From positions 1 to 36,991 of the forward strand of contig JAKOZM010000178.1 in NCBI GenBank assembly GCA_029779995.1: 36,991 nt of DNA, in the 5' to 3' direction. Position 1 is the first letter of the stretch. Every line of letters starts with the position of its first letter. The notes beneath the pieces were generated by a model that made no database searches, had not been told where the DNA came from, and saw nothing but the letters and a program-made list of their open reading frames with translations. This DNA comes from Actinomycetes bacterium (GTDB lineage: Bacteria > Actinomycetota > Actinomycetes > S36-B12 > UBA10799). A program made the position numbers and the translations under genes. Positions 14,916 to 18,538 of this stretch are shown piece by piece.

Positions 14916-16022
14916 TCAGCAGGGAGTCGCCTGGGGGGCCAACAGGTCCGAGACCACGCGGCCGATCTCATCGGTCTCCAGCAGGAAGCCGTCGTGGCCG
15001 AAGGGGGATTCCACGACGTCGAGGTCCACTGCGAGCTCGTCGGCGATCTGCTGCTGTAGGTACAGCGGGTAAAGCCGGTCGGAGGTGATACCCACGACCC
15101 GGGTGGGCACCTCGACCTCGCGCAGCGCGCCCAGCCCGCGGCCACGGTACACATCGTGCAGGGCCATCGCATCGGACAACGACACATAGGTGGCAGGATC
15201 GAATCGTCGTTCGAGCTTGCCGGCCTGGTGGTCGAGGTAGGACTGGACCGCGAACCGGCCGTCGGCCAGGGCGTTCTCCCCCAACTGGTGGTCGCGGCCG
15301 AAGCGGGCGGCAAGCTCCCGCTCGGTACGGTACGTCAGGTGCGCGATGCGCCGGGCGATGCCCATCCCTCTCACCGGCGCGCGGCCGGTGTCGTGGTAGT
15401 CGCCGCCCTGCCAGTCCGGATCAGCCCTGATCACGTCGATCTGGACGTTCTGGGTCGCGATCTGGTCCGCGGTCGCCGACGCCGAAGTCGCCATCACCAG
15501 GGCCGTGCCCACCCGATCAGGGTGCTGCACGATCCACTCCAGCGTGCGCATCCCGCCCATCGAACCGCCCATGACGGCGGTGAAATGCTCGATGCCCAGC
15601 GCGTCGGCCAGAGCCACTTCCACAGCGACCTGGTCGCGGATGGTGATCCGCGGCCAGCGCGATCCGTACGCCCGGCCGTCCGGGGCGATACTCGACGGAC
15701 CGGTCGTGCCCTGACAACCCCCGAGCACATTCGACGACACCACGAACCAGCGGCGGGTGTCGATCGCCTTGCCCGGACCGATCAGCTCATCCCACCAGCC
15801 GGCAGTCGGCTGGCCGGGGGCGGTCGGCCCGGCGGCATGCGCGTCACCGGTCAAAGCGTGCTGAACGAGCACCGCGTTGTTGCCGTTGTAGACGCCCCAG
15901 GTCTCGTACGCGACGCGCACCTCCGGCAGCCGCTCACCCAGATCCAGACCCATGGGGCCCAGGTCCGCGAACTGCCGCCCCGCCACCGGATCTCCTGGGC
16001 GCCAGCCGCCGGAGGTGCTCAT
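14916..16022 (-). CDS. metX: Homoserine O-acetyltransferase
   Basis: Converts homoserine and acetyl-CoA into O-acetylhomoserine, the substrate of the MetY enzyme encoded just upstream. The 368-residue protein is full length. It shows the alpha/beta hydrolase elements of MetX: NAVLVQHALTGDAHAAG (oxyanion loop, about 49-65), CQGTTGPSS, nucleophile elbow GGSMGGM with S154, 'VVGITSDRLYPL' (acid Asp) and ESPFGHDGFL with His 343. Its ATG lies 2 bp after the metY stop, so the two genes are translationally coupled and share the metY attenuator. Confidence 0.95.
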   Translation of the reverse strand: MSTSGGWRPGDPVAGRQFADLGPMGLDLGERLPEVRVAYETWGVYNGNNAVLVQHALTGDAHAAGPTAPGQPTAGWWDELIGPGKAIDTRRWFVVSSNVLGGCQGTTGPSSIAPDGRAYGSRWPRITIRDQVAVEVALADALGIEHFTAVMGGSMGGMRTLEWIVQHPDRVGTALVMATSASATADQIATQNVQIDVIRADPDWQGGDYHDTGRAPVRGMGIARRIAHLTYRTERELAARFGRDHQLGENALADGRFAVQSYLDHQAGKLERRFDPATYVSLSDAMALHDVYRGRGLGALREVEVPTRVVGITSDRLYPLYLQQQIADELAVDLDVVESPFGHDGFLLETDEIGRVVSDLLAPQATPC

Positions 16023-16024
16023 CG

Positions 16025-17341
16025 TCAGGCCTGCTTCGCTGCCCGGAACCCGGCGTCGAGGTCGGCCAGGATGTCGTTGATGTTCTCGATCCCGACGGCC
16101 AGCCGGACCAGCCCCGGCGTCACGCCGGCGGCCACCTGCTCCTCGGGACTCAGCTGAGAGTGAGTCGTCGAGGCCGGGTGGATCACCAGGCTGCGCACGT
16201 CACCGATGTTGGCGACGTGGCTGTGCAGTTCCAGCGCCTCCACGAAGGCTTGCCCCGCCTCGACACCGCCGGCGATCTCGAAGGCCAGGACGGCGCCGGT
16301 GCCCTTCGGCGCGTACTTGCGGCCCGTCTCGTACCAGGGGCTGCTCGGCAGGCTCGCGTAGTTGACCCCCAGGACCTCGTCGCGGGTCGTCAGCCACGTC
16401 GCGACTGCCTCCGCGTTCTGCACGTGGCGCTCGATGCGCAGGCTCAGCGTCTCCAGACCCTGCGCCAGCAACCAGGCGTTGAACGGCGCCACCGCGGCAC
16501 CGAGGTCGCGCAGCAGCTGCACCCGGGCCTTGAGGATGAACGACAGGTTCGCCCCGAACTGCGATCCGACTCCGAGGTCCCGGGCGTAGACCAGGCCGTG
16601 GTAGCTCGGGTCGGGCTCGTTGTAGTTCGGGAAGCGCTGCGGATACAACGCGTAGTCGAACGTGCCCCCGTCGACGATCACGCCGGCGACCGCCGTCCCG
16701 TGCCCGCCGATGTACTTGGTGGCCGAATGCACGACTACGTCAGCACCCCACTTCAGCGGCTGGATCAGGTACGGGGTGGCCACCGTGTTGTCCACGATCA
16801 GCGGGACCCCGACCTCGTGGGCCACGGTGGCGACCGCCTCGATGTCGAGGATGTCATTCTTCGGGTTCGAGATGCTCTCCCCGAAGAAGGCCTTCGTGTT
16901 CGGCTGCACGGCCGCCCGCCAGGACTCGGGATCGGCCGGGTTCTCGACGAAGGACACCGTGATGCCGAACTTCGGCAGGGTGTAGTGGAACAGGTTGTAG
17001 GTGCCGCCGTACAGGCTCGGGCTGGAGACGATGTGATCGCCCGCCTCGGCCACGTTGAGGATCGCCAACGTCTCGGCGGCCTGGCCACTTGCCACCAGCA
17101 GGGCGCCCACACCGCCCTCGAGTGCCGCGATGCGGTCCTCCACGGCGGCCTGCGTCGGGTTCATGATCCGCGTGTAGATGTTGCCCAGTTCCTTGAGGGC
17201 GAACAGGTTCGCGGCGTGGGTGGTGTCGTTGAAGGTGTAACTGGTGGTTTGGTAGATCGGCAGGGCCCGCGCATTGGTTGTCTCATCGGGGGTCTGACCT
17301 GCGTGGATCTGCTTGGTTTCGAAGGACCAGGCGTCGCTCAT
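16025..17341 (-). CDS. metY: O-acetylhomoserine aminocarboxypropyltransferase/sulfhydrylase
   Basis: PLP enzyme that makes homocysteine (or methionine) from O-acetylhomoserine and sulfide (or methanethiol). 438 residues. Cys/Met-metabolism PLP signatures are present: YTRIMNPTQAAVEDRIAALE (about 56-75), ASGQAAETLA (84-93), IVDNTVATPYL (about 182-192), HSATKYIGGHGT with PLP lysine K209, and the C-terminal VRSLVIHPASTTHSQLSPEE. ATG 17341 gives the standard N-terminus and has AAGGAA as Shine-Dalgarno; the frame runs on upstream to 17548, but that reading crosses the terminator and leader peptide and is not real. First gene of the metYX operon. Confidence 0.95.
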   Translation of the reverse strand: MSDAWSFETKQIHAGQTPDETTNARALPIYQTTSYTFNDTTHAANLFALKELGNIYTRIMNPTQAAVEDRIAALEGGVGALLVASGQAAETLAILNVAEAGDHIVSSPSLYGGTYNLFHYTLPKFGITVSFVENPADPESWRAAVQPNTKAFFGESISNPKNDILDIEAVATVAHEVGVPLIVDNTVATPYLIQPLKWGADVVVHSATKYIGGHGTAVAGVIVDGGTFDYALYPQRFPNYNEPDPSYHGLVYARDLGVGSQFGANLSFILKARVQLLRDLGAAVAPFNAWLLAQGLETLSLRIERHVQNAEAVATWLTTRDEVLGVNYASLPSSPWYETGRKYAPKGTGAVLAFEIAGGVEAGQAFVEALELHSHVANIGDVRSLVIHPASTTHSQLSPEEQVAAGVTPGLVRLAVGIENINDILADLDAGFRAAKQA

Positions 17342-17405
17342 CGGGATTTCCTTTTCGTTGTCGGGTCGGTACCTGTGGGGGAGGTAGTCCGGACGCGGGC
17401 GGCAC

Positions 17406-17436
17406 CGAAAAGAAAGCCCCGGACTCTTCGCCGGGG
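17406..17436 (-). terminator. Intrinsic terminator of the metY attenuator
   Basis: On the minus strand CCCCGG (17436-17431) pairs with CCGGGG (17422-17417) across an 8-nt loop and is followed by CTTTCTTTTC, a good U-tract. It lies in the 5' leader between the leader peptide and the metY ribosome binding site, so it must be passed for metYX expression. Confidence 0.8.
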
Positions 17437-17467
17437 AACGTAAGTGGACGTCGCTCAGGCCCCGACG
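17429..17467 (-). promoter_or_regulatory. Antiterminator pairing of the metY attenuator
   Basis: CGTCGGGG at 17467-17460 (inside the last codons of the leader ORF) can pair over 8 bp, one of them G-U, with CCCCGGCG at 17436-17429, the 5' arm of the terminator. The two structures exclude each other. A ribosome stalled on the Cys/Met codons upstream would leave the antiterminator free; one that reaches the stop codon would cover it and let the terminator form. Confidence 0.65.
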
Positions 17468-17511
17468 GCGGACATCATTCGACAACACATACACATGTGG
17501 CGGATGTTCAC
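17455..17511 (-). CDS. Cys/Met-rich leader peptide of metYX
   Basis: An 18-codon ORF, GTG start at 17511, TGA at 17457-17455, reading MNIRHMCMCCRMMSAVGA. Seven of residues 6-13 bear on sulfur: M6, C7, M8, C9, C10, M12, M13. A Shine-Dalgarno AGGAAGG lies about seven nucleotides upstream. The ORF ends about 20 nt before the terminator and its last codons form the antiterminator. Cysteine-rich leader ORFs controlling sulfur genes by attenuation are known in Actinobacteria (shown in mycobacteria for polycysteine ORFs); here both cysteine and methionine codons are in the stalling window. Confidence 0.75.
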   Translation of the reverse strand: MNIRHMCMCCRMMSAVGA

Positions 17512-17523
17512 CGTGAGTCCCTT

Positions 17524-17563
17524 CCTGACGTTGCGTCGAGTGTGCCACAGGTGGCTGGGGCTG
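17524..17563 (-). promoter_or_regulatory. Candidate promoter of the metY leader transcript
   Basis: On the minus strand a TCGACA-like -35 is followed after 17 bp by CACACT, a possible -10, just upstream of the leader peptide ribosome binding site. The spacing is right but both hexamers are imperfect. Confidence 0.3.
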
Positions 17564-17583
17564 TCGAACGAGGGGTGGGCCAG

Positions 17584-17817
17584 CTACTCCTCGATGCGCA
17601 GGCCGACATGGCTGCGCTCCAGCTCCTGGTATAGCAGGCGGATCCGGCGATGTGCCTCGATCGGCGTGATCTTGCCGGCCGTCTCGAGTGCACAGACGTA
17701 CGCCACGCGCTGCGCAAACTCCTGCAGATTGGAGTCGAAGGCCAGATTCTCCGGCGTGAACTCCCCCTGGAAGGTCGCCTTCGGGGCCAGGAAGGACTCG
17801 CGGTCATCCTCAGTCAT
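17584..17817 (-). CDS. DUF7219-like small conserved protein
   Basis: A 77-residue protein. The block GEFTPENLAFDSNLQEFAQR, continuing V.Y.C.LETAGKI.P.EA...I..L...L (residues 18-70), closely matches a small conserved protein family best known from cyanobacteria (DUF7219). It is predicted to be a short all-helical soluble protein with no signal peptide. Function unknown. ATG 17817 lies 1 bp after the stop of the upstream gene (TGA-C-ATG), so it is translationally coupled to the propeller-like protein. Confidence 0.65.
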   Translation of the reverse strand: MTEDDRESFLAPKATFQGEFTPENLAFDSNLQEFAQRVAYVCALETAGKITPIEAHRRIRLLYQELERSHVGLRIEE

Positions 17818-17818
17818 G

Positions 17819-18538
17819 TCACTCCAGCACCCTCAGAGCGCCACGGCCGTCGCGGTTGTCCAGCGCCACCAGCCATTTACCCTGCGCAGTGCGGGCGAGT
17901 CCCTCCGCTTTGGGCAGACCCAGCGGGATCTGGGGGCCGCCAAGTGGACCGAAGCACTGATCCTGGTCGCTGAGCAACCACACCTGGTCGTCATGGACGG
18001 TGACGTCTGAAACGTCCGACAGGTTGACCTCCCAGGAGGCCAGAGCCACCAGCTCTCCCGACGGTGGCGGAGACCACTTTCCGGGCAACGGATCGCCTGC
18101 GCTGAGTTGGCCAGGCAGTCCGAACTCCAGGATCACCGCCGGCTTCTTCTCCTTGACGACGTAGACCCGCTCATTGCCGAAGAAGAGACCCTCGCCGTGG
18201 GAGTTGGGGTCTTTGCGCCAGGCCTTACTCAATCCTTTGAGATCCACTACCAATCGCCACCAGCCCATCACAGCCTGCTTGGCCAGGTCCACAGCCACGA
18301 GCAGGGCCGGCTCCTCGCACAAGATGGCCACCAGGTCATCGCAGACGTGTTCCACTGCCTCGAACTGCCCGGTGTCGGACGGGGCACCAGGCAGTCTGGC
18401 CACGTTGAGGGTCTTCCACTGCCCGGGCCGGCCATCCCAGGGGCACCACGCGAGCACCGGCTTGGCATCGCCCACGATCACGAGGGACTCGCCAGCGAAG
18501 CAGGCTCCGCTGACCTCGGCGATGGGCGCGTCGTACAC
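17819..18538 (-). CDS. Propeller-like protein, SdiA-regulated/esterase-like type
   Basis: A 239-residue soluble protein without signal peptide. It consists of repeated beta-strand segments, e.g. SGACFAGESLVIVGDAKPVL, HGEGLFFGNERVYVVKEKKP and VTVHDDQVWLLSDQ, then AEGLARTAQGKWLVALDNRDG. These 'EGL....G.lyvv.E' and 'EGla....gk.lva.DN' motifs recall the SdiA-regulated and phytase-like esterase propellers, but the assignment is tentative and no catalytic residues are evident. GTG 18538 has TAGCCT seven nucleotides upstream (leaderless). It forms an operon with the DUF7219-like gene. Confidence 0.5.
   Translation of the reverse strand: MYDAPIAEVSGACFAGESLVIVGDAKPVLAWCPWDGRPGQWKTLNVARLPGAPSDTGQFEAVEHVCDDLVAILCEEPALLVAVDLAKQAVMGWWRLVVDLKGLSKAWRKDPNSHGEGLFFGNERVYVVKEKKPAVILEFGLPGQLSAGDPLPGKWSPPPSGELVALASWEVNLSDVSDVTVHDDQVWLLSDQDQCFGPLGGPQIPLGLPKAEGLARTAQGKWLVALDNRDGRGALRVLE

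Follow-up and report, generated by a model that had tools for sequence, protein, structure and literature searches.

Introduction

How is the methionine gene pair metYX of this actinobacterium switched, and which sulfur amino acids does its leader read? Upstream of metY the window (the whole stretch of DNA analysed, 36,991 nucleotides) carries a short reading frame rich in Cys and Met codons, followed by a hairpin with a U-rich tail, which a first-pass annotation had taken for a complete attenuator answering to both amino acids. The second gene of the pair we presume to be metX on grounds of gene order and general knowledge. The sulfur substrate of MetY is sulfide, and cysteine is a linked sulfur pool and not its direct substrate, so that the earlier phrase that the leader would sense both input and product of the pathway is loose and is better read as naming two sulfur amino acids, a lack of which raises the need for homocysteine.

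Canestrari et al. reportedly described polycysteine leaderless sORF attenuators in mycobacteria in 2020. In the parts of PMC13236596 and PMC9094748 that cite these systems they resemble the locus described here in having a short Cys-rich ORF before sulfur genes, but by the title of that study they are leaderless and poly-Cys, whereas the frame in the window is led by a Shine-Dalgarno-like sequence, mixes Cys with Met and precedes a U-tailed terminator. Candidate Cys leader peptides were also listed in 2005 for the cys operons of Mycobacterium and P. acnes and for cbs of B. longum (PMC1262725). These are likewise actinobacterial leader ORFs with Cys codons near the stop, but the sections of that paper that concern them report no conserved terminator hairpins, and no conserved RNA structures are reported there before methionine operons. 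The closest case is metL of S. lividans, the predicted leader peptide of metNIQ (MSTTSDRTPATEATTTPGARCMCRRMCAF; PMC8079986, Table 4). Going by the portion of the paper that treats it, metL shares with the window the actinobacterial origin, the short ORF before methionine genes and the mixed cluster of Met and Cys codons, but lies before a transporter, is leaderless and has no typical Rho-independent terminator. Its authors describe it as dependent on methionine and draw attention to its methionines and threonines. Leaders that mix Cys and Met codons are thus a kind already predicted.

Results and Discussion

The leader of metYX

The coordinates of all features are compiled in Table 1. In the nearest relatives another gene than that for DUF7219 seems, by eye, to lie upstream of the leader.

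Table 1: Features of the metYX leader and the neighbouring genes in the window.
Feature	Position	Strand	Basis and remarks
metX (presumed), homoserine O-acetyltransferase-like (alpha/beta hydrolase)	14916..16022	minus	Pfam PF00561
metY, O-acetylhomoserine sulfhydrylase	16025..17341	minus	Pfam PF01053, E 7.6e-134; name from family and gene pair
Terminator hairpin CCCCGGCGAAGAGTCCGGGG, then CTTTCTTTTC	17436-17417	minus	6 G-C pairs, 8-nt loop; fold -11.8 kcal/mol
Antiterminator 3' arm CCCCGGCG, overlapping the terminator 5' arm	17436-17429	minus	pairing, covariation
Small inner hairpin GACGT/ACGTT, enclosed by the antiterminator helix	17437..17452	minus	arm-to-arm fold -16.3 kcal/mol
Antiterminator 5' arm CGTCGGGG, within the last ORF codons	17467-17460	minus	pairing, covariation
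Control codons 6-13, Met Cys Met Cys Cys Arg(CGA) Met Met	17473..17496	minus	7/8 Cys/Met
Leader ORF MNIRHMCMCCRMMSAVGA, 18 codons	17511-17455	minus	GTG start, TGA stop; homologous ORFs in six relatives
Shine-Dalgarno-like AGGAAGG	17526-17520	minus	8 nt ahead of the GTG start; sequence
Small DUF7219 (PF23856) gene	17584-17817	minus	directly upstream of the leader

Read on the minus strand from 17511 to 17455, the leader ORF is GTG AAC ATC CGC CAC ATG TGT ATG TGT TGT CGA ATG ATG TCC GCC GTC GGG GCC TGA, with three Cys and four Met among codons 6-13. Across the six frames of the 37-kb window it is the sole site with at least six Cys/Met codons (at least one of them Cys) per eight codons; such a stretch occurred in one of 100 dinucleotide-shuffled windows and one with seven in none, which bears out the clustering pointed out at first. 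A short ORF in which codons for amino acids of the pathway cluster, as in attenuators of the trp/his type, is thus evident from the sequence, and its translation is predicted. The start at GTG 17511 is putative and has a Shine-Dalgarno sequence; ATG 17496 is an alternative, near which none was seen. The Shine-Dalgarno-like sequence 8 nt before this putative GTG start would speak against a leaderless start of the kind proposed for the mycobacterial polycysteine sORFs. A comparison of the peptide (padded with two Ala to 20 residues) with NCBIfam matched 0 families, including NF042934, NF042936 and NF042933 (cis_reg_atten or Cys-rich leader peptides), and the cut-off of NF042934 was reached by two of three tested leader peptides from relatives without the SAM-IV riboswitch.

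A gap of 18 nt separates the ORF from the terminator hairpin, which is the only terminator-like site in 17330-17830 (shuffles average 0.3). As the first-pass annotation had claimed, the last part of the ORF is able to pair with this terminator's 5' arm, by eight pairs of CGTCGGGG with CCCCGGCG, one of them G-U. Since CCCCGGCG serves as 3' arm of the antiterminator and as 5' arm of the terminator, the two structures are mutually exclusive, and the U-tailed terminator stands before a structural gene as in known attenuators. The folding stability of the leader is not unusual against shuffles (z 0.12) and plain folding is uninformative, so that the case rests on arrangement and covariation and not on energy.

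Folding with a ribosome on the leader

The leader was folded for every ribosome position along the ORF, with the covered bases masked, at equilibrium and leaving kinetics aside, using three footprints of 12, 15 or 17 nt beyond the first base of the P-site codon. The free RNA forms the terminator with a probability of 0.82. At the 15-nt footprint the model gives 0.95-0.99 with the A-site at codons 2-5, then 0.19 at Met6, 0.17 at Cys7, 0.65 at Met8, 0.81 at Cys9, 0.45 at Cys10, 0.00 at Arg11 and 0.19 at Met12, and again 0.85-0.99 from Met13 to the stop. Folding with and without the leader occupied, a check proposed along with the original claim, thus came out in its favour: in the model the terminator is lowered at codons 6-12, fully at Arg11, and restored at the stop. 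That a stall at scarce Cys-tRNA or Met-tRNA would free the antiterminator holds in part. The predicted effect is strongest at Cys7 and codons 10-12 and a ribosome at the stop codon would block the antiterminator, but a stall at Met8 or Cys9 would barely act, with the terminator still at 0.64-0.81. Met13 is badly placed, as with two of the three footprints a ribosome halted at this codon overlies the antiterminator arm. The values depend on the footprint at Met12 (0.00-0.75, with 0.75 at 17 nt), Cys10 (0.05-0.80) and Met13 (0.22-0.85, with 0.22 at 12 nt).

When the spacer from the control codons to the terminator was shuffled, 0 of 200 sequences matched the observed swing, although 47 of the 200 likewise take the terminator to at most 0.05 somewhere in codons 6-12. 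Seven control leaders of another type with strong hairpins showed no swing at their Cys/Met codons (0/7), so the pattern is not made by the method.

Conservation of the ORF and the helix

In one order, 106 of the 166 genomes had a metY match with an E value of 1e-150 or better; of 296 genomes drawn from the class, 145 had one at 1e-190 or better. From genome contigs 80 metY loci were kept. The nearest metY is 90% identical over its full length (G027); another reaches 91% over 338 residues only (G028). Six relatives carry a homologous short ORF, with the following peptides from the aligned start (GTG written as M): MVVMCCCRMTGVAGA (L169), MDVMCRCRMTGVAGA (L081), MVVMCCNRMFQVARA (L094), MDDMCCCRMQQVTGA (L119), MNTTQRMRAVVGA (L131) and MISASMQRMLSAVRAATCACVRTP (L133). 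Cys codons stand at the homologous place in four of the six. The other two, L131 and L133, have Gln for the last Cys codon of the window, L131 being free of Cys altogether, yet both keep CGA-ATG and the helix and have a SAM-IV riboswitch. The hexamer CGAATG (window 17476-17481; Arg CGA, then Met) is invariant in all seven aligned leaders. Internal Met codons number four in the window versus one or two in the relatives, and Met8 and Met13 have no counterpart there.

The alignment of these seven leaders was built on sequence alone, without structure. Within it 91.4% of the cells of the antiterminator helix pair, compared to 37-54% for slid helices, and six of the ten helix pairs show compensatory change on both sides, which 2 of 500 shuffles reach; the percentage paired and the covariation score were each reached by 0 of 500. 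Further pair types in the helix showed no excess over shuffles (312/500 reach it), the pair of columns 47/85 fails in four of seven rows, and the window does without the two outermost of the ten pairs. RNAalifold, unaided, predicted nine of the ten. The second proposed check, an alignment of leaders before metY, therefore found both a conserved ORF and a covarying helix, and together with the on and off states of the ribosome scan this is what the predicted arrangement of ribosome-mediated attenuation would look like. The word complete needs qualification: all parts are in the window, but none of the six relatives showed a U-tailed terminator that overlaps the helix (55-nt folds, by eye). L133 has a hairpin and then CTCTTTT at a distance.

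A covariance model of the element was searched in the 166 genomes of the order with strict filters, 27 candidates being scored per genome. It returned six strong matches (E about 1e-13 or better), all of them metY leaders already in the model. Some of the weaker matches also lie at metY leaders (G088:C90, E 0.03; G048:C7, E 0.14). Of the matches next after the six, those at the nine loci L280-L288 and at G028:C263 appear, by eye, in or beside longer reading frames and were taken as chance.

The SAM-IV riboswitch in related leaders

All six aligned relatives have a SAM-IV riboswitch (RF00634) just upstream of the uORF, and it was also found in 27 of 40 other metY loci scanned. The window is without it: an Rfam search gave neither SAM-IV nor any other match, and 17300-17700 stayed empty even when E values up to 5 were admitted. 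A tree of 117 MetY proteins places the window in a supported clade of 56 rows, of which 42 are SAM-IV-positive, 8 unlabelled and 6 negative, the last including the window and two odd contigs (L023 and L030). The row nearest to the window by path is the SAM-IV-positive L081, and no supported fork joins both. The simplest reading of these sequences is that the aptamer was lost in the lineage of the window.

In order to compare leaders with and without the aptamer we surveyed 229 distinct metY leaders, forming 168 clusters that share a 60-mer. The metY matches behind them were sampled in part (30 loci and 60 regions, then 23 new loci, some of them repeats, and 80 regions) and leaders below 200 nt were dropped (L027, L066, L067 and L152 are that short). 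A fuzzy pattern called SAM-IV in 138 of the 229, and cmscan agreed in 60 of the 60 loci run. Candidate Cys/Met uORFs were present in 54 of the 138 leaders with SAM-IV and in 29 of the 91 without, the 29 including the window and likely chance ORFs (e.g. L023, L232, L244, L245), all of which were counted. As a strand control, an initial set of 143 leaders was scored under a similar criterion, and 74 of them carried such an ORF in forward versus 16 in reverse direction.

Met codons were counted after the start nearest to the Cys cluster, a definition chosen post hoc, after the first survey data. At least two non-start Met codons occur in 15 of the 29 uORFs without SAM-IV (window included) but in 1 of the 54 from leaders that have the aptamer (Fisher p 8e-8; p 0.003 in a one-sided rank test), and 11 of the 29 have none. 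With one leader per shared-60-mer cluster and the window excluded the contrast is 13/27 versus 1/28 (p 1e-4), and when two repeated leader types are each counted once, again excluding the window, it is 5/19 versus 1/28 (p 0.03). As it shrinks in this way on thinning of kin, the link between Met codons and the absence of SAM-IV is only suggestive, and Met codons may have replaced the aptamer in leaders without it.

A number of other loci (L002, L004, L006, L009, L014, L083 and others) show SAM-IV followed by a uORF with a run of Cys codons (e.g. MCCCRM) upstream of metY. In 29 of 54 leaders the motif AGGTC occurs no more than 20 nt ahead of the start of the uORF (in one of them, L088, it is the aptamer's own strand), compared to 3 of 138 before the metY start. 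As AGGTC repeats the 5' strand of the aptamer helix P1, the aptamer may gate translation of the uORF. We sketch, as a tentative and somewhat doubtful extension, that in ancestral metY leaders of these actinobacteria SAM-IV stood together with a uORF sensing Cys, whose Shine-Dalgarno GAGGTC (a repeat of the P1 strand) may have been gated by the aptamer, and that lineages in which the aptamer was lost or is lacking, that of the window among them, gained Met codons in the uORF, one ORF then reading both amino acids. The SAM-IV and Cys-uORF leader of the relatives suggests a two-input logic on metYX.

Proposed mechanism and alternatives

Our main reading, to which we give a probability of about 0.7, is that metYX is controlled by ribosome-mediated transcription attenuation, through a leader that senses charged tRNA-Cys and probably charged tRNA-Met and has an aptamer-bearing ancestry. 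When both charged tRNAs are plentiful, the ribosome would reach the stop codon and cover the antiterminator 5' arm, and the U-tailed terminator would halt transcription. When Cys-tRNA is scarce (or Met-tRNA, at Met6 or Met12), it would stall upstream of this arm, the end of the ORF would pair with the terminator 5' arm and RNA polymerase would read into metYX. The Met input would thus come mainly through Met6 and Met12. The switch probably arose from a leader with a SAM-IV aptamer followed by a uORF, the aptamer having been lost in the lineage of the window; its role may have passed to the additional Met codons together with the terminator. In the six relatives the helix may target Rho or translation. 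Of the earlier interpretation, which is partly supported, the mechanism was largely right and the history incomplete. The mixed sensor it proposed holds better for its Cys half: the aligned relatives offer no counterpart to Met8 and Met13, so Cys sensing is better supported and the confidence placed in Met sensing was too high.

Three other explanations, which do not exclude attenuation in all their parts, have to be weighed against this one. The most serious is that stalling at Cys alone matters and that Met is incidental, belonging to a Cys-CGA-ATG stretch that owes its conservation to something else, for instance slow decoding of CGA or the RNA sequence itself. The invariance of CGAATG even next to the two Gln codons would suit it, as would the choice of CGA for the Arg codon before Met in 32 of 37 uORF cases versus 0 of 18 in metY genes (kin unthinned), the poor placing of Met13 and the small effect of Met8 in the ribosome model, and the candidate uORFs that have neither SAM-IV nor a non-start Met (11/29). 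We nevertheless hold a Cys-only attenuator to be rather unlikely, given the four internal Met codons of the window against one or two in the aligned relatives and the higher frequency of non-start Met codons in leaders without SAM-IV.

The other two concern the hairpin. The conserved helix might act on Rho-dependent termination or on translation of metY, the terminator of the window being secondary. The six relatives, none with an overlapping U-tailed terminator by eye, point that way, and so do published descriptions of actinobacterial Cys leader ORFs without conserved terminators (PMC1262725) and of translation attenuation acting on mycobacterial cysteine genes (PMC13236596). In the window, however, the arms of terminator and antiterminator overlap exactly and the ribosome scan switches the terminator, and we consider this explanation improbable for the locus. 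More improbable still is that the hairpin simply terminates the DUF7219 transcript coming from upstream, with metYX under a downstream promoter of its own and the ORF a mere decoration. The DUF7219 gene does end at 17584 on the same strand and a simple promoter scan found nothing upstream of the leader ORF, but the same scan found nothing between the hairpin and metY either, the hairpin begins 148 nt past the DUF7219 stop and beyond the leader ORF, and ORF and helix are kept before metY in six relatives with SAM-IV upstream.

The exchange of one sensing system for another before related genes has a parallel in the hisS family, where a T-box gave way to a leader peptide (PMC2965389); in the part of that study concerned, switches from T-box or riboswitch to leader peptide between phyla are mentioned as well. 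The hisS case differs from our proposal in concerning histidine, Firmicutes and a T-box rather than a riboswitch. Within the portion of the open-licence PubMed Central literature covered we found no report of SAM-IV joined to a leader peptide or uORF, and against that literature the new elements are SAM-IV with a homologous uORF in the relatives and its absence here. If attenuation by Cys and Met is correct, metYX would be a compact case in which a single leader peptide combines signals from two sulfur amino acids, all parts of the switch being legible in the sequence. The lineages would also form a natural experiment, the same gene standing under aptamer and Cys uORF in some and under a Cys/Met uORF alone in others, and their comparison makes the exchange of metabolite sensing for sensing of tRNA charge directly testable.

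Further observations on metY leaders

The hexamer CGAATG is strikingly conserved in the window and in the leaders of many relatives and could be a slow codon or an RNA motif. A conserved complement to it was considered and is unconvincing (13 of 37 leaders versus 8 of 37 shuffled). The Cys codons of the metY candidate uORFs are mostly TGT (162/216), compared to 3 of 14 in seven reading frames of the window.

A different clade of metY leaders without SAM-IV (L007, L015, L017, L130, L159 and L165-L168) encodes peptides of the RRxVDLxRVASQMC type with Met codons, in most cases with a GC-rich hairpin downstream. That these leaders use the same antiterminator as the window was tried as a candidate and is unsupported: at equilibrium none was found in the seven examined, 0/7 swinging at their Cys/Met codons (lowest 0.92). 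In L166 the terminator falls to 0.65-0.68 at codons 2-6, away from its Cys/Met codons. Minimal ORFs also occur before metY, namely MFRRMCR in L028 (Demequina), MSRRMCR in L029 (Cellulomonas) and MFTCRMCR in L059, and by eye these are possibly leaderless.
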